Positions 1 to 18,352 of a stretch of DNA of 18,611 bases are shown here, piece after piece. The notes under the pieces are model-generated. The model did not search any database and was not told the DNA's origin. It saw only the letters and a list, made by a program, of their open reading frames with translations. The translations under genes were made by a program, and so were the position numbers. Positions within the stretch are counted from its first letter, which is position 1; the number at the start of each line of letters is the position of its first letter. Location: contig JAAEPW010000758.1 of the NCBI GenBank assembly GCA_024232355.1, positions 1 through 18,611 of the forward strand. Direction: 5' to 3'. Source of the DNA: Chloroflexota bacterium (GTDB taxonomy: Bacteria > Chloroflexota > Anaerolineae > B4-G1).

Positions 1-215
1 AAGCATCAACAGGGACTCAGTCCTACAATTCCAAAATATCATTTTCAAGTTTGCCAGACCCTGGATATGGGATTTTCCATTTGAACGCCAGTAGATATGG
101 GGGTGGATAGAATTGAATATGCATTTTAGCAAGTTAAGGACCGACTCCCTGCTGTAACAACAGAAGTAGAATTTGAATGCTGATTTTACACAAGAAAAAA
201 GAAATAGAATAATGC
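1..215. other. Upstream intergenic region, no gene seen
   Basis: AT-rich stretch before the first gene. I see no open frame of convincing length, no tRNA and no clear sigma-70 promoter; hexamers resembling -10 boxes occur but without a matching -35 at proper spacing. The promoter of the large secreted protein must be here or left of the window. A short motif related to CGACTCCCTG(C/T)TGTA appears near 147-164 and, inverted, near 18531-18547. Confidence 0.5.
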
Positions 216-226
216 AGGAGGAGAAA

Positions 227-3200
227 ATGAGCGGCAAAAAGGCAGTTTTTCGGTTTGTTCTAGCGTTGAGTTTGGCCGTTGTTGGCCTGGTTGTACTCTT
301 TGGACTTTTGGGAGCTACGCAGGAGCAGGTGCTTGCAGCTGCGCCTCGCCCCGCGATTGATCTCGTGGATAGGTGGGATGCGCCCCGCATGTCTCCACCT
401 ATCAATTCTGTTCGGTCGCCAATGGACGCACCACCGGCGGCTCCTTTATACAACGGCATTAGCGCGGCTTCTGTCATCACGGTGTGCAAGCCGAGTGCTG
501 GGCCTTGCGACTATGCCACTGTCCAGAATGCCGTGGACGCCGCAGCCACCGGCGACATTGTCAAAGTTGCACAGGGGGTCTATAACGACGTCCAATTTCC
601 CAACGTGGTGGTCTATATCTATAAAACGCTGAGCCTGCGGGGTGGCTATACCACGACTGGTGTGGCTGCCTGGATGATCTCTGACCCGGATAAATATCCC
701 ACCGTCTTGGATGGAGAAAACAGCAACCGGGTGATGATCATTGCCAACGATGTTATTGCTCCGATCATTGAGGGTTTTCACATTCGGAATGGTGTTGCGG
801 ATTTTGGCGCTGGTATGTACATCATTGGCGGTTCTCCACAAATACGGCGCAACCGCATCTACCGTAACGCGGCAACCGATTCTGGCGGCGGTATCTATAT
901 CGCCGCTTCTGGAAACTCGCCGGTGGTGGAGAACAACTTTATCTATACGAATACGGCAGACTCGAGGGGGGGTGGTATCTATGCCGGTGGCGACTCGCCG
1001 TTCATACATTATAATACCTTTGTCGATAACCTGGCGACCAATCAGGGGGGTGGCTTATACCTTATATCCGACTCGCCGGTCGTCAGTGCGTCCATCGTTG
1101 TCAGCAACGTTGCTGGAGCCGTAGACGGTGGTGGCGGCATTTTTAACGCTATGCCCACCTTTGGTGGTTCGGTAAAGTACAACGACGTGATAAGCAATGT
1201 CCAAGGTGATTTTGTCGGTTTTGATCTACCACGTCCTTTGAACAACCTCGGAGAGCTTCCGCTGTTTGTAAATTTATCCGCATGGAATCTTCGCCTTCAG
1301 CCAGGCTCTCCCTGTATCGGTAGAAATAATCCAGACTATTATCCTAGCACCCGCTACCCCGCCGACGATTATGATAGTTTGGCCCGTTCCTTTGGCCCCT
1401 ATCCGGACATTGGGGCTTCCGAGTACTATACGGGTACGTGCTTTGCACGGGTGGATAGCAGCCGAGTCTATACCACGGTCCAGGAAGCGGTAGACGCTTT
1501 CAGCGCCGCCAACGACGAGGAGGTCAAGGTGGCTGGCTCGTGCACCGGCAGTGGCAGCAACGTCGTCTATCTGGACGAATCTCTCACACTGCGCGGCGGC
1601 TATACACTGACCAACTGGAGCGTTCCGTATGCGGATACCTATGCGACCGTCTTGGATGGAGAGGGAGCGAGGCGGGTGATCCAGGTCGATGCTATGGCAG
1701 CGACGGTAGAGGGATTCCACATCTACAATGGCTATACCTCGGACAGGGGCGGCGGAATTTATATCGAGGGAGGGGTCGACCAAGTATCGCTGATTCGGAA
1801 CAACTGGATTCACAGCAACACCGTGGACGGTGGTGGTGGAGGCATCTTTATTGGCGGCGGCAGCCCCACGATACAGGGCAACGAGATCTACCACAATGCG
1901 GCTCCCGATAGCTGGGGGGGCGGCATCTATATCGACAATAGCGCCGCTTTGATACAGGATAACACGATCTATACCAATACGTCCAAGAGTGGGGGCGGGA
2001 TGTACGTCCTGGGAACGCAAGCGATCGTAGAGTACAATCGAATTTACGAGAACAGCGCCGTAGCTGGTGATGGAACCGATCAGGGCGGCGGCGGGATCTA
2101 TGCTTTTGGTGACGTGCTGGTACGGCGTAATGTCATTTCCGGCAACGTTACCTACGATCTCCCGGCGGCGTTTCAAGACGTCAGGGGAGGGGGAATGTAC
2201 GCCAGGGCCGCCAGCGTCGGTACGACTGATAGGGTTACGGTAGAGCAAAACCTGATCTATGGCAACGCTGTCGTTCACAGTGGATCGCCCGAAGCACAAG
2301 GTGGGGGAGTTTACGTCTTTGATCGTATGGTGGCCGGACAGAGCCTGGTCCTCGTACAGAACAATGTGGTTTATAGCAATACTTCCGATCAAGAAGGGGG
2401 CGGTATCGGCGTGCGGGGGAACGCGGTGATAGATGCCAACACGGTCTATGGCAACCAAAGCAATAATAATCAAGGTGGCGGCATCGCCAGATATAATGGC
2501 GGAGGCGGGGCGGGTGATCCCATTGTCCGCAACAACATTGTTATCAGCAATACCGGTTATGGAATTCACAGCCTGGAGCCGGCTCGCATCACGGTGGATT
2601 ACAATGACTTGTTGGGAAATACCCTAGCAGACTGCTTTAACGTCGATTGTAATCCGGGAACCAGCACCAACCTCAACGCCGATCCCCAGTTCGAGGACCT
2701 GGGTGGCTTTGATTTCCGCCTTCAGGCTGGGTCTCTCTGTATCGACGCGGTGACCGTCATTACTCACCCCGTATACGATTACGACAACTATGCCCGTCCC
2801 TTTGGTCAATACGCCGATATGGGGGCGCACGAGTATTACACCGGCGATTGCTTTGCCCGCTTGAGCACCGGCGGCGGGGTCTACACCTCGGTGCAGGCGG
2901 CGGTGGACGTAGCGGTCGCGGGGGTGGACGACGTGAGGGTGGCGGGAGTTTGCCAGGGCAACGATGGAATGGCTACCATCGACAAGTCTTTGTCACTGAG
3001 TGGCGGTTATACAAAGTCCAATTGGATTGAGCCTACCTATCCCACCATCTTGGATGCCCAGAACGGCGGGCGCGTGCTGACTATATCGGGTGCTGGGGCC
3101 ACTCCGGTGACCATCGAACGGCTCATTGTCATGGATGGAAGTACTGCTGGCGATGGCGGCGGCATTTATGTCGACTGGCCGCTCAGTCCCACGATTCAGA

Positions 3201-6200
3201 ACGTCATATTTTACGACAATGGCGCGGTCAACGGCGGTGGCTTTGCTTCGTCCGGGGGCAACCCGTATCTGTACAACAATACCTTTGTCGCCAATACTGC
3301 TGCTACCGACGGCGGTGGACTTTACCTGAATGGCGGCGCTCCTGTCCTTGGAAACAATATCGTGGTCAGCAACACGCGCGGCGGTATACACATTGCTGGC
3401 GGGAGTTTGCCAATCTTGGCCTACAACAACGTGCGGAGCAACACCGTCGGCGACTATGGTGGTGGTTTGAGCGCGGGCGCGACCGACATCTCTGAACCTC
3501 CGTATTTCGTGGCTCCGGCTGGCCCGGTCTTTCGTCTACGGTTCGATTCTCCCTGCATCCACGCAGGTGACCCGGGAACTGGGGTGGCGCTGGACTTTGA
3601 GGGGCACGCTCGTCCCGACGGAAGCGGGCAAGGGCAGCGCTACGACATCGGCGCCGACGAGGCCATCGACTACCTCGGCGTCAGCTTGGGGCCAGATGTA
3701 TCGGGCCTGGTTGCTGCTTCTGGGGATACGGTCGAGTACACCCATTATCTGACCAATACCGGCACGCGTGACGATGAATTCTCCATTACGCATACAGTCG
3801 AGGTAAGCGGAGGTGATTCGGCGGGCTGGCAAGATCAGGTCACGTACATCTCTGATTATACACTGTCGGCAGACGAGTCATCGCCGGTGATGGTCAGCGT
3901 TCAGGTGCCTGGTGGCGTCTCGAGTGGCACGCAGGCGACCATATTTATGACCGCCACTTACCAATCTGGCAGTGACTATTTCTTCGACGTAACCACCAGT
4001 ACCATCGTCGTCATTGATTCTGCCGACCTGATGCTCGTTAAATCCATCACGCCGGACACCGCCGCACCCGGCGATGCCATCACCTACACGATTAGCTTTT
4101 CCAACGTGGGCGCAGAATTGGCGACCGGCGTCGTCATCAGTGATAATGTCCCTCTCAGCGTGACCAACACCAGTGTCATCAGCAGCGGCAATGCATTGTC
4201 CCCAATGCTCGTCATCACGCGGCGCGTCAGCACGCGCTACGTGTGGGACGTGGACAATCTCGCGCCTGGCGCGGGCGGCGTGATCACTGTCACCGGCACG
4301 TTGAGCGACGTGTTGGCGGCGGGCGTTTTTACCAACACGGCGACGATCGCCACAACAGCGGTGGACGGCGACGCGGATAACAACAGCGACGACGCGGGCG
4401 TGGAGGTGCAGAACGTCGCACCCGTGGCCGACGACGACGCCTTTAACGTGGACGAGGACAGCAGCCTCAATCCGCTCGACGTGTTGGACGGCGACACGGA
4501 CGCCAACGGCGACACACTGACCATCACCACCGTCGGCAATCCCGACAGCGGCGGCGCGGTGGTCAACGGCGGCACAGTCGTCACCTATACGCCCCTGGCA
4601 GGCTACGTCGGGGATGAGGTCTTTACGTACACCGTAAGCGACGGCAACGACGGCTTTGATACCGCCACGGTCACCGTCACGGTGGACAATGTCAACGACA
4701 ACCCCACTGCGACCGACGATTCCGCTACGGTGAACGAGGACAGTGGGGCCAATACCATCGACGTGTTGGACAATGACAGCTATCTGCCCGACCCGGTCGA
4801 GACTTTGACCATCAGCGCGGTCGGACAAGGCGCAGACGGCAGCGTGGCGATCACCAATGGCGGAGCCGACCTGAGCTACACGCCGGATGCCGATTTCTAT
4901 GGAACCGATACTTTTACCTACACCATCGGCGACAGCCATGGCGGCACGGATACCGCCACGGTCACCGTCACGGTGGACAATGTCAACGACCGGCCCATAG
5001 CCGTGGACGACATGTTCACCGTCGACGAGGACAGCACTGATAATCCGCTCGACGTGTTGCTCAATGACTTTGACAGAGACGGCGACACGCTGACGATCTC
5101 TGCCGTTGGTCCGGTATACAGCGGCGGCGGCACGGCGGTCAACGGTGGCACAGTCATCACCTACACGCCGATGGCAGACTTTTACGGCTATGAGACCTTT
5201 ACCTACACCATCAGCGACGGTAATGGCGGCTTTGACACTAGCACCGTCAACGTCACAGTCAACCAGGGGCCTGTGGACAACAACCCGCCGGTGGCCGTGG
5301 ATGATGCAGCCGTCGCCGAGTGGGAAACGCCCGTCACCGTCGCCGTGCTCGATAATGACAGCGACCCCGACAGCGATCCGATCACCGTCACCGCCGTGGG
5401 AGCAGCCACAAACGGCACGACAGCATACTCGAACTCTGTCGTCACCTATACGTCTGATGCGGGCTTTACGGGGACGGACACCTTTACCTACACCATCAGT
5501 GACGGGGAGGACAGTGACACGGCCCTCGTCACGGTCAATGTGGCCCAGGCACGCTTTGTCATCGACGCCGACGATCCCACAGACGTCATTTTGGACCTAC
5601 CCGGAGGTTGTAGAACAGATATTCAGGCATCTATTGGAACCGTTCCAGTAGATATGGACATGCTGTACAATGTAGCATCAGCGCCCAGCATCACACCGCC
5701 CAATCACGAATTTGTCGGCTGTGCATTCACGTTGGACGCATACCTGGGTGGGATGCGACAAGATGATTTCGACTTTGATACACCTATCTCTGTCACCCTC
5801 ACGTACGAAGAGGCCAATGTTGCCGGGCTGAACTTGGACACGATGCAACTCTTTGCCAAGGATGATGGCAGCGATGAGTGGTCCACCGACGGCATTACGC
5901 GGGAAAGCCTCGACCCAGTTGCTCGTCGTCATACCTCCCGGGTGGCCCACTTGACGCAGTTCGGGCTCTTTGTACAGCAAGAGCCCGCGCTTCGTGTCTT
6001 CAAGTCGGTGAACACTGGCGGGCTGGACCCGGTGCCGCTGGGCAGCGTCGTCACCTACACCCTCGTGATCAGCAACAGCACCGATGAGGTTGCCAACAAC
6101 GTGGTGCTGACCGATCCGCTGCCCTCTGCCGTGACCTTTGGCGATTGGGTGATGTATGGTGGCTCGGCACTGCTGCCACCTCCGGGAACGGTGAACCTGC

Positions 6201-6433
6201 CGCCTGTCACCATCGAGTGGTCGCCGGGCGACGTTGCCACAGGCGCGGCGTACACGCTCTCTTTCACGGCCCACGTCGTCACCGACACCCAGTTCGCTGG
6301 GGACACTGTCGTCAATACCGCCTACGTCATCGCCGACAATGCCGATCTCGACTCGGACTCGGTCAGCTTTGGGATCAAAGGCGGAGAATCGTACATCTAC
6401 TTGCCGTTGGTAGTGAGGAACGCAGAATCGTGA
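227..6433 (+). CDS. Giant secreted beta-helix / DUF11 / tandem-95 repeat protein
   Basis: Predicted extracellular or surface protein of 2068 residues; adhesion or polysaccharide interaction is plausible but unproven. The start is ATG 227, preceded by AGGAGG at 216-221; an in-frame TTG at 173 has no such site. Residues 1-40 form a signal peptide (KK, long hydrophobic core, small residues before the cleavage site). Three right-handed parallel beta-helix modules follow at about 83-403, 404-873 and 874-1148. Each opens with a YTTVQ-AVDA type segment and GGYT, runs through GGGIY/NN rungs, and closes with D(I/M)GA-E. Next come an Ig-like region (1150-1262), a DUF11 domain (1265-1395), four tandem-95/cadherin-like repeats (about 1398-1778, with DED, LDND and FTYT(I/V)SDG motifs), an unrecognised domain (1780-1915), a second DUF11 domain and the C-terminal tail SYIYLPLVVRNAES. 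No catalytic residues were recognised. It probably forms its own transcription unit. Confidence 0.93.
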   Translation: MSGKKAVFRFVLALSLAVVGLVVLFGLLGATQEQVLAAAPRPAIDLVDRWDAPRMSPPINSVRSPMDAPPAAPLYNGISAASVITVCKPSAGPCDYATVQNAVDAAATGDIVKVAQGVYNDVQFPNVVVYIYKTLSLRGGYTTTGVAAWMISDPDKYPTVLDGENSNRVMIIANDVIAPIIEGFHIRNGVADFGAGMYIIGGSPQIRRNRIYRNAATDSGGGIYIAASGNSPVVENNFIYTNTADSRGGGIYAGGDSPFIHYNTFVDNLATNQGGGLYLISDSPVVSASIVVSNVAGAVDGGGGIFNAMPTFGGSVKYNDVISNVQGDFVGFDLPRPLNNLGELPLFVNLSAWNLRLQPGSPCIGRNNPDYYPSTRYPADDYDSLARSFGPYPDIGASEYYTGTCFARVDSSRVYTTVQEAVDAFSAANDEEVKVAGSCTGSGSNVVYLDESLTLRGGYTLTNWSVPYADTYATVLDGEGARRVIQVDAMAATVEGFHIYNGYTSDRGGGIYIEGGVDQVSLIRNNWIHSNTVDGGGGGIFIGGGSPTIQGNEIYHNAAPDSWGGGIYIDNSAALIQDNTIYTNTSKSGGGMYVLGTQAIVEYNRIYENSAVAGDGTDQGGGGIYAFGDVLVRRNVISGNVTYDLPAAFQDVRGGGMYARAASVGTTDRVTVEQNLIYGNAVVHSGSPEAQGGGVYVFDRMVAGQSLVLVQNNVVYSNTSDQEGGGIGVRGNAVIDANTVYGNQSNNNQGGGIARYNGGGGAGDPIVRNNIVISNTGYGIHSLEPARITVDYNDLLGNTLADCFNVDCNPGTSTNLNADPQFEDLGGFDFRLQAGSLCIDAVTVITHPVYDYDNYARPFGQYADMGAHEYYTGDCFARLSTGGGVYTSVQAAVDVAVAGVDDVRVAGVCQGNDGMATIDKSLSLSGGYTKSNWIEPTYPTILDAQNGGRVLTISGAGATPVTIERLIVMDGSTAGDGGGIYVDWPLSPTIQNVIFYDNGAVNGGGFASSGGNPYLYNNTFVANTAATDGGGLYLNGGAPVLGNNIVVSNTRGGIHIAGGSLPILAYNNVRSNTVGDYGGGLSAGATDISEPPYFVAPAGPVFRLRFDSPCIHAGDPGTGVALDFEGHARPDGSGQGQRYDIGADEAIDYLGVSLGPDVSGLVAASGDTVEYTHYLTNTGTRDDEFSITHTVEVSGGDSAGWQDQVTYISDYTLSADESSPVMVSVQVPGGVSSGTQATIFMTATYQSGSDYFFDVTTSTIVVIDSADLMLVKSITPDTAAPGDAITYTISFSNVGAELATGVVISDNVPLSVTNTSVISSGNALSPMLVITRRVSTRYVWDVDNLAPGAGGVITVTGTLSDVLAAGVFTNTATIATTAVDGDADNNSDDAGVEVQNVAPVADDDAFNVDEDSSLNPLDVLDGDTDANGDTLTITTVGNPDSGGAVVNGGTVVTYTPLAGYVGDEVFTYTVSDGNDGFDTATVTVTVDNVNDNPTATDDSATVNEDSGANTIDVLDNDSYLPDPVETLTISAVGQGADGSVAITNGGADLSYTPDADFYGTDTFTYTIGDSHGGTDTATVTVTVDNVNDRPIAVDDMFTVDEDSTDNPLDVLLNDFDRDGDTLTISAVGPVYSGGGTAVNGGTVITYTPMADFYGYETFTYTISDGNGGFDTSTVNVTVNQGPVDNNPPVAVDDAAVAEWETPVTVAVLDNDSDPDSDPITVTAVGAATNGTTAYSNSVVTYTSDAGFTGTDTFTYTISDGEDSDTALVTVNVAQARFVIDADDPTDVILDLPGGCRTDIQASIGTVPVDMDMLYNVASAPSITPPNHEFVGCAFTLDAYLGGMRQDDFDFDTPISVTLTYEEANVAGLNLDTMQLFAKDDGSDEWSTDGITRESLDPVARRHTSRVAHLTQFGLFVQQEPALRVFKSVNTGGLDPVPLGSVVTYTLVISNSTDEVANNVVLTDPLPSAVTFGDWVMYGGSALLPPPGTVNLPPVTIEWSPGDVATGAAYTLSFTAHVVTDTQFAGDTVVNTAYVIADNADLDSDSVSFGIKGGESYIYLPLVVRNAES
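4658..4990 (+). repeat. 42-nt exact direct repeat inside the repeat-domain region
   Basis: The 42 bases at 4658-4699 recur exactly at 4949-4990. They encode the end of one cadherin-like repeat and the linker to the next (DTATVTVTVDNVND). Exact identity in third codon positions suggests recent duplication or conversion of the repeat unit, and makes the gene prone to gain or loss of one roughly 97-residue domain. Confidence 0.85.
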
Positions 6434-6573: not shown

Positions 6574-6969
6574 TCAGCCCCCTGCGACCAACATCTTGAT
6601 CTTGTCCCGGTCGGGAAATCCCACCTGCCGCTCGATCAGATTGCCCTGCCCGTCAAAGACGAGGAACGTGGGTACACCTCTCATGTCGTAACGCTGTGCA
6701 ACCTCTTGCCCCAACTCGCCGAGTGCGCTCAACCGTACCACCCGCGCTTGCCCTTTTAATTCGCGTTCCAGCCTATCCACGATAGGCTTGGCTAGCAGAC
6801 AAGGCGTTCAGGTATTGGTGTATACCTCAACAACCACCGGCTCGCCCTGGCCCAATACCTCGTCCAGCCCGCCGATGCGCGTGGCGCGATTGCGGAGCAA
6901 CAAAAAGAGCAACAATATGATGCCCCATACTGCCAGGGTTCCCAAATTCGCTTGTAAAAACTCGATCAT
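6574..6969 (-). CDS. Membrane-anchored thioredoxin-like protein, candidate selenoprotein (UTPC)
   Basis: 131 residues if UGA codon 54 (6810-6808) is read as selenocysteine. The start ATG (6969-6967) has GGAGG seven bases upstream and overlaps the stop of the preceding gene by 4 nt (ATGA). Residues 9-25 are a hydrophobic membrane helix followed by R26, R28 and R31, so the thioredoxin domain is probably cytoplasmic by the positive-inside rule. The domain is complete: strand VVVEVYTN, then U54-T55-P56-C57 where thioredoxins have C-x-x-C, the LAKP helix, cis-proline GVPTFLVF and a C-terminal helix. A hairpin of bacterial SECIS type follows the UGA. UGA also serves as the ordinary stop of this gene and its neighbours, so the code is not reassigned. 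The alternative is a nonsense mutation of a Cys codon. A standard gene finder would annotate only the C-terminal 68 residues from a GTG. Confidence 0.82.
6768..6791 (-). promoter_or_regulatory. Candidate bacterial SECIS element
   Basis: On the minus strand the bases after the UGA form a perfect 8-bp stem, AGCCTATC-GTG-GATAGGCT (6788-6770), extended by two more C-G pairs past a single bulged A. The loop GUG begins at the 28th base after the UGA (27 intervening bases). As I recall it, the published bacterial SECIS model asks for a short apical loop with a G in its first two positions, about 16-37 nt from the UGA; this fits. The element lies inside the coding sequence, as is usual in bacteria. 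Confidence 0.7.
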
Positions 6970-7676
6970 AACAAAGCCTCCAATCTCTGGCGCAACACGT
7001 GCGCCGGTTGCGCACCCATCACGCGATCCACTTCCTGCCCGTTGCGGAACAAGAGCAACGTCGGGATGCTCATCACGCCGTATCGCTGGGCCGTCATCTG
7101 GTTAGCGTCCACGTCCAGCTTGGCGACTACCGCTCGCCCGGCGAACTCTTGCGCCAGTTGATCCACTGTCGGCGCGAGCATTTTGCACGGCCCGCACCAA
7201 GCGGCCCAAAAGTCAACCAGCACAGGGGCACTGGCTCCCAGCACCTCTTGCTCAAAATTGACGTCTGTCACGATCAACGGTTGCCCGCTGCCCGACGGCG
7301 TGCTTTTTGGGGATGATTTCTTTATCGTCGGTCTCGGCCCGCGCTCTAGCAAATACTCGACCCACGGGCGCAACGCCTTGGCGCTGGGCATCCCCTTGGC
7401 CCGCGCCACCATCGTCCCTTGGCGGAAGAATAGGAATTGGGGCAGCGAGTCTACGTTGTGTTGGCTGCGCGCCTGGGGCACGTCGGTCACGTCCAGCTTT
7501 ATGATCAGCGCCTCGCCCGCATACTCGCGGGCGGTCTCTTCCAGCACAGCATCGAGCTGCTGGCGCGGCATCACCTGTGCGGACCAAAAGACCGCCACGG
7601 CTGGGTGCGGGGCCTGGAGCACTGCGCGCTCAAAGCTGGCGTCGTTGGCATTGATCGGCGTGTCGTAATGTACCAT
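6966..7676 (-). CDS. Tandem-thioredoxin protein, N-domain inactive, C-domain WCGPC
   Basis: 236 residues with two thioredoxin folds. Residues about 1-112 form a thioredoxin domain whose active site reads F-W-S-A-Q-V35-M-P-R38, so both cysteines of CGPC are lost although the cis-Pro loop (SLPQFLFF) is kept. A basic, proline/serine-rich linker (PTIKKSSPKSTPSGSG) leads to a canonical thioredoxin at about 130-236, with WCGPCK (Cys161, Cys164) and SIPTLLLF. There is no signal peptide, so it is a cytoplasmic disulfide reductase or co-chaperone-like protein. The start is ATG 7676, with AGAGGTGA just upstream; an earlier in-frame TTG at 7703 lies within the likely -10 box. It is the first gene of an operon: its TGA overlaps the ATG of the candidate selenothioredoxin, so the two are translationally coupled and may share a redox task. 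Confidence 0.92.
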   Translation of the reverse strand: MVHYDTPINANDASFERAVLQAPHPAVAVFWSAQVMPRQQLDAVLEETAREYAGEALIIKLDVTDVPQARSQHNVDSLPQFLFFRQGTMVARAKGMPSAKALRPWVEYLLERGPRPTIKKSSPKSTPSGSGQPLIVTDVNFEQEVLGASAPVLVDFWAAWCGPCKMLAPTVDQLAQEFAGRAVVAKLDVDANQMTAQRYGVMSIPTLLLFRNGQEVDRVMGAQPAHVLRQRLEALL

Positions 7677-8003: not shown

Positions 8004-8093
8004 ATGCGCAAGGTAGATTTCATGATCAGTGCAGTTCGGTCTCACAATTCCAGTGAGGGTCTACTGCCTTGTCGCAGTGCGCCTGTTTTCTGA
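8004..8093 (+). CDS. 29-residue leader peptide ORF upstream of the GNAT operon
   Basis: ATG 8004 has a strong Shine-Dalgarno site, GAGGAGG (7991-7997), six bases upstream and lies about 24 nt downstream of a near-perfect promoter. The ORF starts MRKVDFMISAV, contains a single Cys, and ends APVF at a TGA. There is no hydrophobic segment and no recognisable family. Twenty bases after the stop begins an intrinsic terminator. Strong promoter, strong ribosome site, short ORF and terminator in front of an operon is the arrangement of attenuator leader peptides. No amino acid is clustered, so classical amino-acid attenuation is unlikely; drug-induced stalling or a small secreted or regulatory peptide are alternatives. 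It could also be the stub of a deleted gene. Confidence 0.55.
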   Translation: MRKVDFMISAVRSHNSSEGLLPCRSAPVF

Positions 8094-8112: not shown

Positions 8113-8150
8113 AAAGGCCGGGGCGCGCGACGCCCCGGCCTTTTCTTTTC
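8113..8150 (+). terminator. Intrinsic terminator 1 after the leader ORF
   Basis: A perfect 13-bp stem (8113-8125 with 8131-8143) with loop CGCGA is followed by TTTTCTTTT (counting stem Ts). It is very GC-rich and is a strong plus-strand terminator. It lies 19 bases after the leader stop codon and about 95 bases before the first GNAT gene. Confidence 0.92.
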
Positions 8151-8165: not shown

Positions 8166-8199
8166 AAAAGGCCGTGGGCATAACCCACGGCCTTTTTTT
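8166..8199 (+). terminator. Intrinsic terminator 2 before the GNAT operon
   Basis: A second perfect 13-bp stem (8166-8178 with 8184-8196) with loop CATAA ends in a run of seven T. It sits 22 nt after terminator 1 and 38 nt before the first GNAT start codon. A possible extended -10 (TGGTATCAT, 8156-8164) lies between the two terminators, but its transcript would start inside this stem and it has no -35. Confidence 0.9.
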
Positions 8200-8237: not shown

Positions 8238-9251
8238 ATGTCTAAAATATCGCTATTATCTGAGAACTCGAGTCGTCCGGCAGCCATGGACGATTTAAAA
8301 GCTGTTGCTACTTTGTACAATGCTTGTTCCACCGAACAAGTCGGTAGAGCACTGTGGGACGAAACCGAAATACGATCTGATTGGAAAGTGCCAGACTTTG
8401 ACTTTGATACCGATACACGAGTTGTGCTCGCGCCCAATGGCGAATTGGCGGGCTATGCGAGTATATGGGACCGAGCACCGCACGTTCGCTCGTTTGCCGA
8501 TGTGTACGTGCACCCCGCGCATACGGGACGGTCCATCGGCACTTTTCTCGAACAGTGGGCTGATGAGCGCGCTTGTCATACGATCTCTCAAGCACCGGAA
8601 GGTGTCCGCGTGGTACTTCAGCAGCGCGCGTTCAGTTCCAATGTTGCGGCTCAAGCACTGCTGCGACAGCGTGGATATCGGTTGGTGCGTCATTTCCTCA
8701 GCATGGCCATAGAGATGGATGCACCACCGCCAGAGCCGGTTGTGCGTGAGGGGATCACCATCCGGCACTTGAGGCGTGACCGGGAGGCTCGGGCTCTCGT
8801 CTGCGCGCGGCGGGACGCCTTTAAGGACCACTGGGGACACGTGGAACAACCTTTTGAGGAAGAGTATGCGCAGTGGGTCACCTGGATGGACGATGACCCG
8901 GCCTTTGACGAGTCTCTATGGTTCGTGGCAATGGATGGTGAGGAGATTGCGGGATTTTCGTTGTGTTACGATATCACAGGCGAAGGCCCCGACGTGGGCA
9001 CAGTTGCATCTCTGGGCATACGGCGGCCGTGGCGGCGGCAGGGAATCGCGTTGGCGCTGCTTGGTCACAGCTTTGCCGAGATGTACCGGCGTGGCAGGAC
9101 CACGGTCACTCTCGGCGTGGATGCGTCGAGTCTCACCGGCGCCACTCGCCTCTATGAGAAAGTCGGGATGCGCGTGCGGCATCAATCTGATCGATTCGAA
9201 AAAGAACTGCGTCCGGGCAAGGACCCGAGTACGCGGTCTATACAAGAGTAG
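8238..9251 (+). CDS. Double-GNAT acetyltransferase, array copy 1
   Basis: 337 residues with two GNAT (acetyl-CoA-dependent N-acetyltransferase) domains, at about 12-155 and 170-330, the layout of mycothiol synthase MshD. The C-terminal domain keeps the acetyl-CoA pyrophosphate loop R-R-Q-G-I-A in VASLGIRRPWRRQGIA, and the GATRLYEKVGMR motif. In the N-terminal domain the loop reads TGRSIGT, with Ser for the first conserved Gly, so acetyl-CoA binding there is doubtful. Start ATG 8238 has GGAG seven to eight bases upstream. It follows two strong terminators, so it may be expressed by read-through. Its N-terminus (MSKISLLSEN) differs from the MLxTLPE start of the other copies. The substrate is unknown: small amine, antibiotic or protein N-terminus are all possible. 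Confidence 0.92.
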   Translation: MSKISLLSENSSRPAAMDDLKAVATLYNACSTEQVGRALWDETEIRSDWKVPDFDFDTDTRVVLAPNGELAGYASIWDRAPHVRSFADVYVHPAHTGRSIGTFLEQWADERACHTISQAPEGVRVVLQQRAFSSNVAAQALLRQRGYRLVRHFLSMAIEMDAPPPEPVVREGITIRHLRRDREARALVCARRDAFKDHWGHVEQPFEEEYAQWVTWMDDDPAFDESLWFVAMDGEEIAGFSLCYDITGEGPDVGTVASLGIRRPWRRQGIALALLGHSFAEMYRRGRTTVTLGVDASSLTGATRLYEKVGMRVRHQSDRFEKELRPGKDPSTRSIQE

Positions 9252-9269
9252 GAAAACGAGGAGAAGAAC

Positions 9270-10277
9270 ATGTTAGTCACTTTACCCGAGGGCTTTGCGA
9301 CCCGTCCGGCGACGATGGACGATCTAAAAGCTGTCGTTGCTTTATACAATGCTTGCTCTATCGAGTACATCGACAGGGCATTGGTAGAAGAAACCGAAAT
9401 GCGAGCCAATTGGAAGATGCCGCACTTTAACTTGGAAACTGACACGCAGGTCGTGCTGACGCCCGATGGCGAACTGGTGGGCTATGCCAGCATGTGGGAT
9501 TACGCACCACACGTTAGTCTTTTTGCCGGGGTGCGCGTGCATCCCGCATACTTGGGTCGATCCATCGGTACTTTTCTGGAGCAGTGGGCCGAGGAACGAG
9601 CTCGTCGGTCTATCTCCAAAGCGCCAGAAAGCGCTCGTGTGTCACTCCAGCAACGCGCGTTCAGCACCAATGCGGCAGGCCAGACGTTTCTGCGACAGCG
9701 AGGCTATCAGTTGGTGCGCCACTTTCTAAGTATGGTCATCGAGATGGATGCGCCGCCGCCGGAGCTGGTTGTGCCCGAGGGGATCGTCATCCGTCCCTTT
9801 GTCCGTGAGCGGGAGGCGCGTGCCCTCGTCCACGCGCTGCGGGATTCCTTCAAGGACCACTGGGGATACGTGGAACAACCTTTTGAGGACGAGTACGCGC
9901 AGTGGGCCACCTTGATGGACGATGATCCATCTTTCGACGAGTCCTTGTGGTTCGTGGCAATGGATGGTGAGGAAATCGCAGGATTTTCACTCTGTTACGA
10001 TGTCACCGGCGAAGGACCCGACGTAGGCACAGTCGAAGAGTTGGGCGTGCGGCGGCCGTGGCGGCGGCGGGGGATTGCCAAAGCTTTGCTTGGTCACAGC
10101 TTTACCGAGATGTACCGGCGTGGCAGGACCACGGTCACTCTCGGCGTGGATGCATCGAGCCTCACCGGAGCCACCCACCTCTATGAGAAAGCGGGGATGC
10201 GCGTGCGGTATCAATCGGATCGATTTGAAAAAGAATTGCGTCCTGGTCAAGATCTCAGTACGCAGTCTGTACAATAG
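9270..10277 (+). CDS. Double-GNAT acetyltransferase, array copy 2
   Basis: 335 residues, 18 nt after copy 1, start ATG with GAGGAG six bases upstream. It is closest to copy 1: the stretch FDESLWFVAMDGEEIAGFSL and the C-terminal block MYRRGRTTVTLGVDASSLTG are identical, and part of the DNA there is identical too. The C-domain loop is W-R-R-R-G-I-A, intact; the N-domain loop is LGRSIGT, degraded as in copy 1. Variation concentrates in the N-terminal half (residues 25-60, around the segment NACSIEYIDRALVEE), where substrate contacts might lie. It is part of a single tandem operon. MshD-like architecture is recognised; an actual mycothiol role is not supported by context. Confidence 0.92.
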   Translation: MLVTLPEGFATRPATMDDLKAVVALYNACSIEYIDRALVEETEMRANWKMPHFNLETDTQVVLTPDGELVGYASMWDYAPHVSLFAGVRVHPAYLGRSIGTFLEQWAEERARRSISKAPESARVSLQQRAFSTNAAGQTFLRQRGYQLVRHFLSMVIEMDAPPPELVVPEGIVIRPFVREREARALVHALRDSFKDHWGYVEQPFEDEYAQWATLMDDDPSFDESLWFVAMDGEEIAGFSLCYDVTGEGPDVGTVEELGVRRPWRRRGIAKALLGHSFTEMYRRGRTTVTLGVDASSLTGATHLYEKAGMRVRYQSDRFEKELRPGQDLSTQSVQ

Positions 10278-10298
10278 CAGGAGAACAGAGAGAAGAAC

Positions 10299-11306
10299 AT
10301 GTTAAACACTTTACCTGAGGGCTTTGTAGCCCGTCCAGTAAAGATGGATGATTTGAAAGCAGTGGTCACGCTTTGCAACGCTTGCTCGATGAAAGAGATC
10401 GGCAAGCGGGTACTGGAAGAGAACGAGTTGAAGACCGAATGGAATATGCCGACCTTAAATCTAGAGACCGATACGCAGGTTGTGCTCACACCAGGCGGCG
10501 AGTTTGTGGGACACGTTGTTACGTGGGATTGTGCGCCGCACGTACGTTTTCGGGCGAATGTGTACGTCCATCCCGAGTACAAAGGGCGGCTTATCGGCAC
10601 CTATCTCCGCCAGTGGGCGGATGAACGCGCTCGACAATCCATCGCCAAAGCGCCAAAGGGTGCTCGTGTGGTGTCGCGATGTAACACGAATAGCACGAAT
10701 ACGGCTGCTCAGGAACTGTTACGCCAGTATGGTTATCAGATCGTGCGCCACTTTTTTAACATGGTGATCGAACTGGATTCGCCGCCGCCAGAGCCGGTTG
10801 TGCCCGAGGGCATCCTCATCCGGCCCTTTGTCCGCGAACGAGAGACACACGCCCTCGTCACGGCAGGCCGGGAGGCTTTCAAGGATCACTGGGACTTTAT
10901 CGAAACCCCTTACGAGGAGGAACTGGCGGAATGGGAAACGTGGATGGATGGTCCCACGTTCGATGAATCGCTGTGGTTCGTGGCGATGGATGGCGACGAG
11001 ATGGTCGGTTTCTCGTTGTGCTTGGGTATTGTCGCAGAAGGCCCCAACGTGGGTCACGTAGCCGAGCTGGTCGTGCGACGGGCTTGGCGGCGGCGCGGGA
11101 TCGCGCTGGCGATGCTCCAGCACAGCTTTGGCGAGCTCTACGGGCGCGGCAAAACGGTCGTAACCCTCGGCGTCGATGGGCAAAGCCTCACCGGCGCTAC
11201 GGCGCTGTACGAACAAGCCGGGATGCGCGTGAGACATCGTGCTATCTGTTTTGAAAAAGAACTGCGTCCGGGCAAGGACCTGAGTACGCAGTCTGTACAA
11301 GAGTAG
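10299..11306 (+). CDS. Double-GNAT acetyltransferase, array copy 3
   Basis: 335 residues, 21 nt after copy 2, with an AGAGAGAA ribosome site. It pairs with copy 4: both carry NACSMKEIGK near residue 30, HLRQ/YLRQWADERAR near 105, and C-terminal VTLGVDGQSLTGATALYE. The C-domain acetyl-CoA loop W-R-R-R-G-I-A is intact. The N-domain loop is KGRLIGT, with Leu for Gly. Compared with copies 1 and 2 the mid-protein segment VVSRCNTNSTNTAAQELL replaces LQQRAFS-N-AAQALL. Bases 11073-11214 match copy 4 with one difference, evidence of recent gene conversion or duplication. Confidence 0.92.
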   Translation: MLNTLPEGFVARPVKMDDLKAVVTLCNACSMKEIGKRVLEENELKTEWNMPTLNLETDTQVVLTPGGEFVGHVVTWDCAPHVRFRANVYVHPEYKGRLIGTYLRQWADERARQSIAKAPKGARVVSRCNTNSTNTAAQELLRQYGYQIVRHFFNMVIELDSPPPEPVVPEGILIRPFVRERETHALVTAGREAFKDHWDFIETPYEEELAEWETWMDGPTFDESLWFVAMDGDEMVGFSLCLGIVAEGPNVGHVAELVVRRAWRRRGIALAMLQHSFGELYGRGKTVVTLGVDGQSLTGATALYEQAGMRVRHRAICFEKELRPGKDLSTQSVQE

Positions 11307-11324
11307 GAGAACAAGGAGAAAAGC

Positions 11325-12332
11325 ATGTTAAACACTTTACCCGAGGGCTTTGTGGCCCGTTCGGCGACAATGGACGATTTGAAAGCCGTGGTTACACTTT
11401 GCAACGCTTGCTCGATGAAAGAAATCGGCAAGCTGGTGGTGAAAGAGAACGAGTTGAGGACCGAATGGAATATGCCGTCTATCAATCTGGAGACCGATAC
11501 GTGGGCTGTGCTCGCCCCCAGTGACGAGCTTGTGGGATACGTTGGCTGGCGGGATTGCGCGCCACATGTGACTTTTTGGGCTAACGCGTACGTCCATCCC
11601 AAGTACGAAGGACGCCTCATCGGCACCCACCTCCGTCAGTGGGCGGATGAACGCGCTCGACACTCTGCCATCAAAGCACCGGAGGGCGCCCGCGTGGTAT
11701 CACGATGCGAGATGCATAGCACAAACATGGCCGCCCAGGCACTGTTGCGCCAACACGATTATAAAGTCGTGCGTCACTTTCTCAACATGGTCATCGAGAT
11801 GGATGCGCCGCCGCCAGAGCCGGTCCTGCCTGAGGGGATCATCATTCGGCCCCTTGTCCGCGAACGGGAGATGCACGCCCTCGTCGCGGCAAGTCGGGAA
11901 TCGTTCAAGGATCACTGGGGCTTTGTCGAACGCCCTATCGAGGATGATCTCGCAGAATGGGGAACGTGGCTGGATGATCCCACAGTCGATGAATCGTTGT
12001 GGTTCGTGGCGATGGATGGCGACGAGATAGTCGGTTTTTCGTTATGCTTGGGCATCGTCGCAGAAGGCCCCGATGTGGGCCACGTGGCCGAGTTGGCCGT
12101 GCGACGGGCTTGGCGGCGGCGCGGGATCGCGCTGGCGATGCTCCAGCACAGCTTTGGCGAGCTCTACGGGCGCGGCAAAACGGTCGTAACCCTTGGCGTC
12201 GATGGGCAAAGCCTCACCGGCGCTACGGCGCTGTACGAACGAGCCGGAATGCACGTACGACGTCGTGCTCTCTGTTTTGAAAAGGAACTGCGTCCTGGAA
12301 AGGACCTGACGACACAGTCTGCACAAGCATAG
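11325..12332 (+). CDS. Double-GNAT acetyltransferase, array copy 4
   Basis: 335 residues, 18 nt after copy 3, with AAGGAGAA before the ATG. Intergenic sequence and first codons (MLNTLPEGFVAR) match copy 3, so the duplicated unit of about 1.03 kb included the ribosome-binding site. The C-domain loop W-R-R-R-G-I-A is intact; the N-domain loop EGRLIGT is degraded. Differences from copy 3 cluster around residues 55-90 (DTWAVLAPSDELVGYVGWRD) and 115-150, so divergence is uneven along the gene. Function is as for its paralogues: an acyl transfer whose acceptor cannot be predicted from the sequence. Confidence 0.92.
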   Translation: MLNTLPEGFVARSATMDDLKAVVTLCNACSMKEIGKLVVKENELRTEWNMPSINLETDTWAVLAPSDELVGYVGWRDCAPHVTFWANAYVHPKYEGRLIGTHLRQWADERARHSAIKAPEGARVVSRCEMHSTNMAAQALLRQHDYKVVRHFLNMVIEMDAPPPEPVLPEGIIIRPLVREREMHALVAASRESFKDHWGFVERPIEDDLAEWGTWLDDPTVDESLWFVAMDGDEIVGFSLCLGIVAEGPDVGHVAELAVRRAWRRRGIALAMLQHSFGELYGRGKTVVTLGVDGQSLTGATALYERAGMHVRRRALCFEKELRPGKDLTTQSAQA

Positions 12333-12341
12333 GAGGAAAAC

Positions 12342-13370
12342 ATGTTAAAGACTTTACCTGAGAGCTTTACGTCCCGTTCAGCGACGATGGACGACATAGA
12401 TGCCGTGGTTGCCCTGTTGAATGCCTGCGCCATCGAGGAGACCGGGCATCCACAGTTTCGCGCAGACGAGCTGCGCACCGATTGGCAGCGGCCTGGGTTC
12501 AACCTAGAGACCGACACGCTGGTCGTGCTTGCCCCCGATGGAGAGTTTGTCGGCTATGCTGTAACGTGGGACTTTGAGCCACATGTGCATATCATGGTCA
12601 CAGCAGCTGTACATCCAGAACGGAAAAAGCTGGGAATCGGGACTGCCCTCTGCCACTGGATAGAAGCGCGTGGACAACAGTCTGTGCCCAAAGCGCCGCC
12701 AGACACCCGCGTGACGTTGAGTCAGGAAGTGTTGAGCGGAAACGAGGCCGCCCAGGAATTGCTGTGCGAACAAGGGTATCAATTTGCACACTACAGCTTG
12801 CATATGCTCATCAAGATGGATGGGGCACCGCCAGAGCCGGTCGCGCCTGATGGATTCACGATCCGGCCCTTTGTCCGTGGTCAGGAGGAGCGCGCGATGA
12901 TCCAGGCGATACGGGAGTCGTTCAGGGGGCATTGGGGGTACGTGGAGGGTCCCTTTGAAGATGATTTGGAGGGTTACGTGCATCTTTTAGACACCCCCGG
13001 CAACGATCCGTCGCACTGGTTCGTGGTGATGGATGAAGACGAGATCGCCGGTACATCGTTCTGTTACACCGAGTTGGCCGAGGACCCAGAAATGGGTTGG
13101 ATTTGGGCGTTGGGCGTGCGGCCGCCGTGGAGACGGCGCGGGTTGGCGCTGGCATTGTTGCAACACTGTTTTTACGCACTCTACCAGCACGGCAAGCACA
13201 AGGTCGGATTGGCGATGGACGCGCAGAATCTCAGCGCGACCCGTCTCTACGAAAAGGCCGGGATGCACACGCAACGCCAATACAAGATTTACGAGAGTGA
13301 ATTGCGTCCCGGCGATGAACCGGGTGGCAGTCTGGAAAAAGTTGAGGAGGAATCCGATGGTCCAACATGA
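12342..13370 (+). CDS. Double-GNAT acetyltransferase, array copy 5 (most divergent)
   Basis: 342 residues, 9 nt after copy 4, with AGGAGG before the ATG. It is the most diverged member. Its N-domain has a near-canonical acetyl-CoA loop, K-K-L-G-I-G-T-A, unlike the other four copies, and its C-domain has W-R-R-R-G-L-A. Both domains could therefore bind acetyl-CoA. The region around residue 225 (LDTPGNDPSHWFVVMDEDEI) and the C-terminal LSATRLYEKAGMHTQRQ also differ. It has a short acidic tail (EKVEEESDGPT). It overlaps the ABC remnant start by 14 nt, and its 3' end supplies that gene's ribosome-binding site, so the two were translationally coupled. It may be closest to the ancestral gene, with copies 1-4 arising by later duplication. 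Confidence 0.92.
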   Translation: MLKTLPESFTSRSATMDDIDAVVALLNACAIEETGHPQFRADELRTDWQRPGFNLETDTLVVLAPDGEFVGYAVTWDFEPHVHIMVTAAVHPERKKLGIGTALCHWIEARGQQSVPKAPPDTRVTLSQEVLSGNEAAQELLCEQGYQFAHYSLHMLIKMDGAPPEPVAPDGFTIRPFVRGQEERAMIQAIRESFRGHWGYVEGPFEDDLEGYVHLLDTPGNDPSHWFVVMDEDEIAGTSFCYTELAEDPEMGWIWALGVRPPWRRRGLALALLQHCFYALYQHGKHKVGLAMDAQNLSATRLYEKAGMHTQRQYKIYESELRPGDEPGGSLEKVEEESDGPT

Positions 13371-14464: not shown

Positions 14465-17400
14465 ATGAAACCAACACTTGTCTTTGATGCCGACGATACC
14501 CTTTGGGAAAACGAGGCATATTATCAACAGTGCGCCACCGAGTTCGGAGAACTGATGGCGACGCTGGGGCTGGATCCAAAAGAGGCCAAGCACACGTTGG
14601 ACGACGTCGAGCGTGTGCGCGTCCGCCTGACCGGCTATGGACCAGTCCAGTTTATCGAGAACATGGTCATCACCTACCAGCAGTTGTGCGAGCAGCACGG
14701 GCTGCCTGTTACTAAAGAGATAGCGGATGGGGTTAGAGAGATCGGTCAAGTGGTGATGGATTTCCCCATTGTGCTGCTCGACGGCGTGGAGGATACTCTG
14801 ACCCGATTCAATGGGCACTATCGCCTGCTGCTGCTGACCAAGGGAGACCAAAAAATCCAAGAGGAAAAGGTGACCCGGTCTGGCTTGGCGCACTTTTTCG
14901 ATGGCGTGCACGTGGTGCCGGAAAAAGACGCGCAGGTGTTCCGCAACCTGGTGGCCGAGTATGGCTTGGAACCGGAGCGGACGTGGATGATCGGCAACAG
15001 CCCGCGCTCAGACATCAACCCCGCGCTGGAAGCGGGTATCGGCGCTGTGCATATCCCCCACGCGACCACATGGGTTTTGGAACGACAAGAAATCGCAACA
15101 TCTGAGCGGGTCGTCATTTTGGATAACTTTGGGGAACTGGTGTCCTTATTTCTCAATGGTGAACAAGAGGTAGAACGAATGACTGAATACAAGATACGTC
15201 CCTACATGCCTGCCGACAATGCCCGTCTGGCCGTGATGTGGAACGAAAGTGATGATCAATGGCCAGGCACGTTCACCCAAGGTGTGCCGATGACCGAGGA
15301 TTTCGTGCGGGAATGGATGGATGAAGAAGTTTGCCTGATTCGTTTTGTGATCGACTCGGAGGCGGATGGCAGCATCGTCGGTTTCGGCTCGCTCTGGGAA
15401 ACGGTGGGGCAAACGGATGGCTGCCACGTGGAGATGCTCAACGTCCACCCGGCCCACCAAAAGCGCAGCTTGGCCCGCCGTATGCTGACCCGGATGGTGG
15501 ATTATGCTGCCGACCACGACTACCGCCGGATGACGATCGAAACTTGGCCGGGCAACCTCAAGTCGGTGCCGCTTTATAAAAAAGTGGGCTTTTTCTGGAC
15601 TCCAGACACTACCGTCTATATGGAAAACTATATCCCCGCCATCCGCCAGTTGGCCGTTGCCCAACGGTTCTTTGAGCGGCACGACTGGTATGCTACCTTT
15701 CGGCGCGAACTTGAGCAAGTGGAGGACGACCAGCGTCACCCGGCCACGGGCGATACAAAGGTCTATGCCTTTCGCTGGGAAGCGGACGGCGAGTACCTGG
15801 AGGCGGTGGTGGATCGCCTGGGGCAATCACTCGCCGGTCTGGAGACGGCGGATTTTAGTGCGCACACTATCGTGGACGAGAGCGAACCGGCGCAGGGGAT
15901 CACCTATCCAGTGCGCTGGAAGGTCGTCAACAAAAAAGATGAGCCGGTGGACGTCTCGGTGCTGGCTGAAGGGCAAACTGGCATCAAACTGAATCACCGC
16001 TCGTCGTTCACGCTGGCTGCCGGGGGGAAGCGCGTCGTCGAGGCGACGTTTACCTGCGCGGCAGACGCGCCGCGCCTTGATGACGACAAATTCAAAGCAG
16101 CACCTCAGATCAAGACCACCCTCGTCGTCGGCGGCGAGGTGGTGAAACTGGGCACCGGTCTGCGCTACCGTCCGGCGGTAGAGATCAGCGCCGAGCCCGA
16201 GTTCCCCTCGTTGCTGCCCGGCGAGCCCAAGACGGTGCATCTGCAACTGCGAAACCGCGCCGGACGCCCGTTGAGCGGCACGGTGAGCGTGTCGCCGCAA
16301 GAGGGGCTGACGACCGATTGGCTGTCCCAAGAGTTCGAAGCCGAGGACAAGGACTATGTCGGCTTGCCGCTGACGGTGACTTGTGACCAAGCAGGGACCG
16401 TCCCGCTGCTCGTCTCGACGACTTTTGCCGATGCGGGCCGCCAGATCACAACCAACCCCCAGCGTATCCCGCTGTTGGTCACGCCCCTGGGCGGTGTCTC
16501 GGCGGACCAGGGCACGGACAAGATCGTCGTCGAAAACGATTTTTTCCAATTGACCTGCCGGACCAAGGGGGGAATCTGCCACGTGGAAAACAAGGCGCGC
16601 CAGGCGCGCGACGCGATCATCGCAGAAGAGGTCGGCCCGCCCTTTGAGCCTCGGGAACTCCAAGAGAGACAATACGGCCTGGCGCTGAAGCGTGGGCAGG
16701 GCTGGGCCAAGGCGACGGTAACGGTCAAGTCGGACCGTTTCCCTGGCCTGACCATTGCCCGCGAGATCACGGTCACCGGATCGCCACTGATGCAAGTGCG
16801 CTACCAGGTGACGAATGATGCAGCTACGCCGTCCACATTCAAGCTCAGTCCGCGCCTGCGGTTCGTCGGGAAAGATGTGAGTCACGTCGCGCTACCGCGC
16901 AAAGAGCGAGTGGTGATCGAGCGCATGGCCGAGTTTCCGGTTGCGAAAGGCGATATGCCCAAAAAGCCAGAGCTTTTGGCCGAGCAATGGATGGCATTCA
17001 CGCGTGACGGTCAGGTAGCCGGTGTTGTGTGGAATGGGGATCTGGAAAAGCACGAATTCTGGTGGGAGCGTCTGTTTCTTTTCTTTTCCGAGCGCACGCT
17101 AGAACCTCAAAGCGCGACCAATATCGGGCCGCTCTATGTCTATGCCGGGCCGGGCGATTGGCGTGACGTGCGCCGCGTCTGGCAGCGAACAGTGGGCGCA
17201 GTGCCGCAACAGCCTGAGATCGTGCCAGAGCCGGATCGCCCGCACGCCTTTGGTGTGTCGCCCGCGCCGCTGGTGACGTTGAACGGCCAGATCGAGGCAA
17301 GCCTCTACGCTAACAGCATCCGCAAGCGCGAGATGCAAGGACGCATTGTCATCGAGCTGCCGTCGGGTTGGACGGTGGATCAAGCCGAGTTCCCGATAGA

Positions 17401-18352
17401 GAGCCTGACTTGCAAAAAGCCATTGGCAGAGACGCTGCGACTGACAGCGACCGATAAGCGAATCGGCGCCGCCGGCGGTCAACTGCGGATAGAGGGTAAC
17501 CAGTTCGACGAGATTCGTCCCTTCACCATGGTTCGTCTTGGCGATGAACGGGCAGCAGTGCGGGTCGAGGAGATGCAAGAATCCGAGCAGCCGCTCTGGG
17601 TCGTCGACAACGGACACAGCGCCTGGACGGTCGCCCCGGCCTATCACGGCGGCGTCACTACCTGGCGCGAGGCTGACAGCGACGTCAACCATCTAATGAC
17701 GGCCTTTCCCGAAAGCGGCAAACGGGGGTGGCTCAAACCATGGTTCGGCGGCATCTGGCCCATCATCACACCGGTGGGTGACGACGAAGACATCTGGCCT
17801 GGCAAACTGCACGAGGAGACATTCACCGCGGCACCGCTCGAGCGTGCCGACGCGCGCGGAATCCCTTGGCGCGGTGTGCAGGTGGCGGCTTCTATCAAGC
17901 GCGAGGGCTTTGAAGGGCTCCGTGCCGAGGTCGCCTACCTGACCGTGGGAGGCAGTAACATACTAAAGGTAGTTTACCGGCTGGTCAATGAGACGAGCGT
18001 TTACCGGCGCTATACGCAAGGCTTGTTGACTTTCTGCCAGACAGATGGACGGCACCAGGACACAATCCTGTACGGGGAAGGCTACCAGCGCAAGAGCACG
18101 GCGCAGATGGCCTTTTCAAAGGTCGGAGCCTGGGGAGCGGCCGTCAATCCAGCAACCGGCCGGGCGGCGGTGATGGTCGGTGCTTCGGGGAAAAAGCGAA
18201 TGGAGCTGAGCGACTGGGGTGTGGACGGTGGTCATCTGATGTTTTACAACACCATCACACTGAAACCCCACAGCAGCCACGAGATGGTGGCCTACCTGGC
18301 CCTGGCCGAATCGCTGGAGGAGGCAGAACGATATGGCAGTATTGCGCTCTGA
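14465..18352 (+). CDS. HAD hydrolase - GNAT - beta-sandwich (mutarotase-like) fusion protein
   Basis: 1295 residues, start ATG with AAGGAGAG upstream, no signal peptide, so cytoplasmic. Residues 1-235 are a HAD-superfamily phosphatase-type domain with all motifs: D8-A-D10-D-T, T125 in LLLTKGD, K154 in PEKD, and D183 in GNSPRSD. Residues about 239-395 are a GNAT domain (NVHPAHQKRSLARRML, with Ser for the loop Gly; LYKKVGF). From about 460 to the end are beta-rich modules: Ig-like segments (463-565, 569-675 and 927-1030) and two regions resembling the galactose-mutarotase beta-supersandwich (about 685-910, opening VENDFFQLTC-x-TKGGI; and 1035-1295 with WFGGIWPIITPVGDD), folds known from carbohydrate-active enzymes. 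Met239 has its own AAGAGG (15165-15170) eight bases upstream, a likely fossil of two fused genes or an internal start. Substrates are unknown; a phosphorylated sugar or amino-sugar is a guess from the domains. Confidence 0.88.
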   Translation: MKPTLVFDADDTLWENEAYYQQCATEFGELMATLGLDPKEAKHTLDDVERVRVRLTGYGPVQFIENMVITYQQLCEQHGLPVTKEIADGVREIGQVVMDFPIVLLDGVEDTLTRFNGHYRLLLLTKGDQKIQEEKVTRSGLAHFFDGVHVVPEKDAQVFRNLVAEYGLEPERTWMIGNSPRSDINPALEAGIGAVHIPHATTWVLERQEIATSERVVILDNFGELVSLFLNGEQEVERMTEYKIRPYMPADNARLAVMWNESDDQWPGTFTQGVPMTEDFVREWMDEEVCLIRFVIDSEADGSIVGFGSLWETVGQTDGCHVEMLNVHPAHQKRSLARRMLTRMVDYAADHDYRRMTIETWPGNLKSVPLYKKVGFFWTPDTTVYMENYIPAIRQLAVAQRFFERHDWYATFRRELEQVEDDQRHPATGDTKVYAFRWEADGEYLEAVVDRLGQSLAGLETADFSAHTIVDESEPAQGITYPVRWKVVNKKDEPVDVSVLAEGQTGIKLNHRSSFTLAAGGKRVVEATFTCAADAPRLDDDKFKAAPQIKTTLVVGGEVVKLGTGLRYRPAVEISAEPEFPSLLPGEPKTVHLQLRNRAGRPLSGTVSVSPQEGLTTDWLSQEFEAEDKDYVGLPLTVTCDQAGTVPLLVSTTFADAGRQITTNPQRIPLLVTPLGGVSADQGTDKIVVENDFFQLTCRTKGGICHVENKARQARDAIIAEEVGPPFEPRELQERQYGLALKRGQGWAKATVTVKSDRFPGLTIAREITVTGSPLMQVRYQVTNDAATPSTFKLSPRLRFVGKDVSHVALPRKERVVIERMAEFPVAKGDMPKKPELLAEQWMAFTRDGQVAGVVWNGDLEKHEFWWERLFLFFSERTLEPQSATNIGPLYVYAGPGDWRDVRRVWQRTVGAVPQQPEIVPEPDRPHAFGVSPAPLVTLNGQIEASLYANSIRKREMQGRIVIELPSGWTVDQAEFPIESLTCKKPLAETLRLTATDKRIGAAGGQLRIEGNQFDEIRPFTMVRLGDERAAVRVEEMQESEQPLWVVDNGHSAWTVAPAYHGGVTTWREADSDVNHLMTAFPESGKRGWLKPWFGGIWPIITPVGDDEDIWPGKLHEETFTAAPLERADARGIPWRGVQVAASIKREGFEGLRAEVAYLTVGGSNILKVVYRLVNETSVYRRYTQGLLTFCQTDGRHQDTILYGEGYQRKSTAQMAFSKVGAWGAAVNPATGRAAVMVGASGKKRMELSDWGVDGGHLMFYNTITLKPHSSHEMVAYLALAESLEEAERYGSIAL

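Follow-up and report, generated by a model that had tools for sequence, protein, structure and literature searches.

A conserved in-frame UGA in a membrane-anchored thioredoxin-like gene of Chloroflexota is almost certainly read as selenocysteine

The window, that is, the whole stretch of 18,611 nucleotides that was analysed, carries a two-domain thioredoxin gene on its minus strand, followed by a reading frame with one internal TGA. Read through, this frame (6969-6574, minus strand) comprises 131 codons, with the single internal TGA at codon 54 and the true stop, also TGA, at 6576-6574. The features of the locus are as follows:

6966..7676, minus strand: two-domain thioredoxin gene, matched by PF00085 on two stretches (E 1.4e-47) and ending in an ATGA overlap
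6977..6981, minus strand: Shine-Dalgarno sequence GGAGG, ending 7 nt before the ATG (from the sequence)
6574..6969, minus strand: putative selenoprotein gene for a 131-residue membrane-anchored thioredoxin-like protein (read-through translation, PF00085 across the TGA, 115 conserved loci)
6895..6945, minus strand: predicted N-terminal membrane helix, residues 9-25 (model helix and hydrophobic segment)
6592..6858, minus strand: thioredoxin domain, residues 38-126 (PF00085 E 5.6e-10, AlphaFold2 model, Foldseek)
6799..6810, minus strand: redox motif U-T-P-C (residues 54-57), where the active-site helix starts
6808..6810, minus strand: in-frame UGA, codon 54, taken as selenocysteine (codons in 115 non-redundant relatives)
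6769..6789, minus strand: SECIS-type hairpin with an 8-bp stem (AGCCTATC/GATAGGCT), the 3-nt loop GUG and -10.9 kcal/mol
6670..6675, minus strand: V99-P100, the proline loop conserved in thioredoxin folds (P100 invariant in two alignments)

The original prediction held that reading through the TGA at 6810-6808 joins a membrane helix to a thioredoxin fold, that the UGA occupies the first position of the redox motif, and that the gene has a Shine-Dalgarno site and ATGA coupling to a thioredoxin gene. The read-through frame was confirmed, and each of these points was borne out: the PF00085 match crosses the TGA, the motif reads U-T-P-C, GGAGG stands ahead of the ATG, and the ATG shares a 4-nt overlap with the stop of the upstream gene.

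The remainder of the window is occupied by genes of other kinds. At 173-6433 lies the gene for a protein of 2086 aa in which beta-helix, cadherin-like and DUF11 domains were recognised, and five tandem GNAT acetyltransferase genes (335-342 aa, each matched by PF00583 on two stretches) fill 8238-13370. Just ahead of this row, the segment 7946-8198 combines a perfect match to the sigma-70 promoter (TTGACA-16-TATAAT, 12/12), a short ORF of about 29 codons with a Shine-Dalgarno-like GAGGAGG and an ATG at 8004, and two strong terminator-like hairpins (8113-8143 and 8166-8196); it looks like a leader-peptide attenuator. The protein of 1295 aa encoded at 14465-18352 has HAD-type hydrolase and GNAT domains in its first 400 residues; the long part beyond them has no Pfam match. 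Rfam at gathering thresholds gave no match anywhere in the window.

The joined protein scored 39.6 bits against PF00085 (gathering cut-off 23.5). An AlphaFold2 model built from 38 sequences had a mean pLDDT of 91.6. Its chain runs from a helix at residues 9-25 into strands and helices, of which the active-site helix (55-70) begins directly past the UGA residue. All 50 Foldseek matches listed were thioredoxins, their fusions or complexes, or thioredoxin-fold domains; the target TM-score was 0.66-0.82 in 48 of them, and the other two were thioredoxin fusions. In an 11-row alignment consisting entirely of UGA genes, column 54 was U in 11/11 rows and Cys57 was invariant. By analogy with the thioredoxin family, we take P100 to be the cis-proline. 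The protein is not a canonical thioredoxin, as it reached 51 bits against the 96.8 of TIGR01068 and its motif reads N-T-U-T-P-C, with no W-C-G-P-C. The description of the protein as a membrane-tethered selenothioredoxin is supported as the main reading, but not in the sense of a canonical thioredoxin.

Of 116 family members, 113 have a hydrophobic segment ahead of the domain, with start codons picked by script. Positive-inside topology divided these 116 members into 49 N-in, 45 N-out and 22 tied. In the window protein, 0 positive charges precede the helix and 3 follow it, which, taken alone, would place the domain in the cytoplasm.

When the joined sequence was searched against 5.8 billion proteins, all 56 matches were pieces of 72-78 aa that start past the codon, in agreement with the claim that annotation loses the catalytic residue. 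The 53-residue upstream pieces could not appear in this first search because of its length filter (0.55-1.75x the query). A profile of 11 read-through sequences returned 491 protein matches, the best 120 of which were examined; among the matches listed were full-length Cys proteins of 136-145 aa (P0059-P0064, P0066 and others).

As a single query, the window protein found no relative in genome contigs or viral contigs. A profile of its truncated relatives yielded 11 genome loci and no locus in viral contigs. The eleventh genome locus was an ordinary WCGPC thioredoxin; the other 10 were family members, and all 10 carry TGA, so that the proposed check of whether relatives have UGA at this codon gave no refutation. 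Plasmids returned 104 records, all below 60% identity and none with 80% query coverage, and the five matches listed were annotated as thioredoxins.

We also used a sample of 396 genomes representing the class of G006 (Thermoflexia) and also including the Anaerolineae G001, G002, G003 and G005. A stop-tolerant search of this sample gave only the stop states "none" and "1 TGA" among the matches listed. The resulting set of 115 non-redundant loci includes L004, L007, L008, L009 and L010 and excludes duplicates, the window and the ordinary thioredoxin locus; it represents 113 genomes, 110 of them from the sample. The family, in its UGA or Cys form, is therefore present in at least 110 of the 396 genomes of the class, and in a phylum-wide sample it was found in 25 of 201 genomes at E 1e-20. 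The aligned codon was TGA in 89 loci, TGC in 20, TGT in 6 and nothing else. Because 89 of 115 relatives share the TGA and all 56 database pieces start past it, the TGA at codon 54 is more than chance.

A nonsense mutation, pseudogene or sequencing error is conceivable in one contig alone, and is highly improbable for a TGA that recurs at the same codon across independent genomes and many branches of the tree, with an intact and conserved frame downstream. In a tree built without the codon column, which is a quick tree from few columns, no fewer than 10 Sec/Cys switches were required, 5 of them forced by supported branches, as compared to 23.8 with shuffled labels. The window grouped with L038 (the place of L001) and L043 (the place of L002) at 99% SH-aLRT.

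Trp stands at the Sec column in two metagenome proteins (P0058 and P0072), as would be expected if this organism read TGA as sense, for example as Trp, and no selenocysteine were involved. The Trp probably arose as the gene caller read TGA as Trp. Against such a code, TGA is the stop codon of both the window gene and the gene upstream of it, Cys is the sole alternative across the 115 genome loci, and relatives carry tRNA-Sec genes with the anticodon TCA; we regard this explanation as very improbable. Pseudogene, sequencing error and altered code were accordingly rejected on the recurrence of TGA in relatives together with the TGA stops of the window genes.

The genomes of relatives encode the machinery for selenocysteine. 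Of the two closest relatives of the window, G001 has selA, selB and tRNA-Sec, and G002 has selA and selB and a best tRNA-Sec match of 46.7 bits (cut-off 47). In these two genomes, the proposed check for Sec machinery likewise gave no refutation. Among the nine genomes of the first UGA loci, selB exceeded the cut-off in eight and selA in seven, and eight had tRNA-Sec matches of 66.9-77.2 bits. As the Rfam cut-off for tRNA-Sec is unspecific (5 of 14 control genomes pass it), these matches were checked with ARAGORN, which identified all eight as tRNA-SeC with anticodon TCA. The genome that carries the ordinary thioredoxin locus had none of selA, selB and tRNA-Sec above the cut-off. A tRNA-Sec gene lies at L001:5100-5196, on the opposite strand and some 0.9 kb past the point where the selenoprotein gene ends.

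Across the class, selA was over the cut-off in 314 of 396 genomes and was detected in 319 at E 1e-30; these 319, together with G004, G007 and G008, formed the set for comparison. It was present in 79 of 87 relatives' genomes with a UGA gene vs 12 of 26 Cys-only genomes (Fisher p 4e-6). Since six of the eight UGA genomes lacking selA have tRNA-Sec or selB, at least one of the three markers occurs in 85 of 87. In the other two (G322 and G328), neither selA, tRNA-Sec nor selB was found, and our guess is that these are gaps in the metagenome-assembled genomes. The 14 Cys genomes without selA yielded no tRNA-Sec among 127 candidates scored per genome, two matches near 50 bits being tRNA-Ser; of the 12 Cys genomes that do have selA, 11 carry selB as well. 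The association of selA with Sec follows clades, and branch-independent pairs gave it no support (1.1 changed the same way and 0.8 the opposite way, of 5).

The hairpin begins shortly past the UGA, with 27 nt from UGA to loop. As quoted from the bSECIS description in PMC13188914, the relevant ranges are a loop of 3-9 nt, an upper stem of 4-16 bp, a spacing of 16-37 nt, a G in the first two loop positions and an MFE of at most -7.5; the window hairpin lies within all of these quoted values. For counts across the family, we used 89 UGA genes, comprising the window and 88 of the 89 loci (L043, which has a 12-nt insertion, was excluded). The six core pairs were complete in 61 of these vs 0 of 26 Cys genes. 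At least five pairs were retained in 88 of the 89, the 28 incomplete cores consisting of 27 with five pairs and one with four; Cys genes averaged about 2.4 of six.

Complete stems occurred in 60 of 86 distinct UGA sequences, vs a mean of 30.0 (maximum 39, 300 shuffles) when codons were exchanged between sequences that have the amino acid in common and a mean of 3.6 (maximum 8, 100 runs) upon synonymous recoding. Two pairs covary, each with a silent codon position on one side and an amino-acid-changing position on the other. Pair 24-34, which links a Pro third base with an Arg/Gly first base, is C-G in 54 and U-A in 30 of the 89 UGA genes; pair 25-33, between an Ile/Val first base and an Asp third base, is G-C in 52 and A-U in 35. 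On the tree, the partner base changed in the same way in a mean of 3.5 (24-34) and 4.7 (25-33) of 5 branch-independent pairs and never in the opposite way; with five such pairs per base pair, significance is out of reach for this comparison. The visible out-of-register controls (24-39, 21-33 and 21-34) were mixed, and changes at pair 26-32 were largely one-sided.

Local hairpin energy averaged -9.5 kcal/mol in UGA genes vs -2.3 in Cys genes, and was -7.5 or lower in 77 of 89 vs 2 of 26. Over 48 nt, folding energy told UGA and Cys genes apart for the nearer subgroup (p 5e-6) and gave no separation for the more distant one (p 0.74); over this length, values of -7.5 or lower also occurred in 19 of 26 Cys genes.

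The hairpin bears on a further explanation, in which the UGA serves as a regulatory stop that ribosomes hardly or never read through: two pieces would be made separately, or translation would terminate and re-initiate. The downstream piece does stand in databases as a protein of its own of 72-78 aa, as this explanation would predict. Yet each piece is half a thioredoxin domain, Cys orthologues such as P0059-P0064 and P0066 are full length, and the complete hairpin core is confined to UGA genes, which together make a regulatory stop very unlikely. The TGA at 6810-6808 is almost certainly read as selenocysteine, and we propose that SelB, guided by the hairpin within the coding sequence, would bring Sec-tRNA to codon 54.

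What the protein does was approached through its neighbours. In the upstream thioredoxin, the first domain is without cysteines (VMPR in place of CGPC) and the second has CGPC. As judged from sequence layout, the upstream ORFs of L001 and L002 match this gene in length and arrangement and show the same 4-nt overlap. In the distant subgroup L107-L140, 29 loci have a metalloenzyme-superfamily gene downstream, and 16 have an EF-G-like gene upstream on the opposite strand.

A selenoprotein at this locus might instead act as a membrane-bound disulfide oxidase or as a metal or selenium handling protein, and not as a reductase of the thioredoxin type. The motif without thioredoxin's WCGPC would fit such a role, as would the gene for a CsoR-type metal-sensing repressor that 10 of 116 loci have no more than 5.5 kb away, 3 of them as the direct neighbour. 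Against this, 21 of the 116 loci have a thioredoxin gene as their immediate upstream neighbour, and 13 have one for thioredoxin reductase no farther than 5.5 kb away, though it is the adjacent gene in just 2; all of these counts come from flanks of unequal length. On balance we consider an oxidase or metal-related role improbable, if a good deal less so than the explanations that dispense with selenocysteine.

Taken together, we consider with a probability of roughly 0.94 that the gene at 6574..6969 encodes a genuine selenoprotein, namely a small selenol/thiol-disulfide oxidoreductase held at the membrane, with a UxxC pair working like the CxxC of thioredoxin. Both selenocysteine insertion and redox activity of the window protein are inferred from the comparisons above. 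A single N-terminal helix would hold the protein to the cell membrane, where its UxxC pair may act as CxxC does in thioredoxin; the thioredoxin encoded upstream would be its partner, and thioredoxin reductase perhaps the electron source. Its role is thus most likely that of a membrane-tethered selenol-disulfide exchange protein served by the upstream thioredoxin.

Selenothioredoxins with UxxC are already known from the accounts in PMC1794560, PMC13188914 and PMC9312934. As described in PMC1794560 and PMC13188914, Sec thioredoxin (PF00085, UxxC) shares with the window protein the fold, the replacement of the first Cys by Sec and a SECIS just past the UGA. The window protein differs in its N-terminal membrane helix, its N-T-U-x-x-C motif without the WCGPC tryptophan and its TIGR01068 score below the cut-off, a distinction drawn from the descriptions of known Sec thioredoxins. 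The thiol:disulfide interchange selenoprotein (PF13098, UxxC), by its description in PMC13188914 and PMC9312934, likewise has UxxC in a thioredoxin-like domain; PF13098 gave the window protein 26.5 bits, just under its 27-bit cut-off. None of the named NCBIfam selenoprotein families exceeded its cut-off. The sole match among them, far below, was to the rhodanese/DsbD fusion-like selenoprotein TsoB (NF045694), whose thioredoxin domain is weakly similar (17.9 bits) and whose model of 572 positions with an 805-bit cut-off does not describe the window protein. Also close are Cys orthologues within the class (L048, L070 and P0076, the last labelled Anaerolineae at its source), which share the anchor, fold and second Cys and carry Cys where the window protein would have Sec; L048 and L070 use the codon TGC, and their stem cores are incomplete.

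A 2006 survey reports three selenoprotein families in Chloroflexi. Words beginning with Chloroflex or Anaerolin are absent from the main texts of two selenoprotein reviews and of the deep-Sep paper PMC12013277. Among the entries listed by a literature search, no title or opening of an abstract concerned the membrane-anchored selenothioredoxin family. With no such title, no NCBIfam model at cut-off and selenothioredoxins already known, we regard the protein as a new form within a known class.

These results indicate that databases store a conserved redox protein from a large class of environmental bacteria as a stub of about 73 residues, without its catalytic residue and membrane anchor, and the corrected gene adds a membrane-anchored subfamily to the selenothioredoxins. 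The silent positions that covary with amino-acid-changing ones suggest that RNA structure shapes protein sequence here. The family also provides a natural set for comparing Sec with Cys (89 vs 26 loci), with at least five switches forced by supported branches. More tentatively, and with the odds somewhat against it, selenocysteine may be ancestral in a membrane redox relay widespread in the class; in the lineage of the window, a two-domain thioredoxin would hand electrons to a membrane-fixed Sec partner, and Cys forms would have arisen repeatedly as selenium was given up. If so, the family would be a record of how the use of selenium was acquired and lost within the class.
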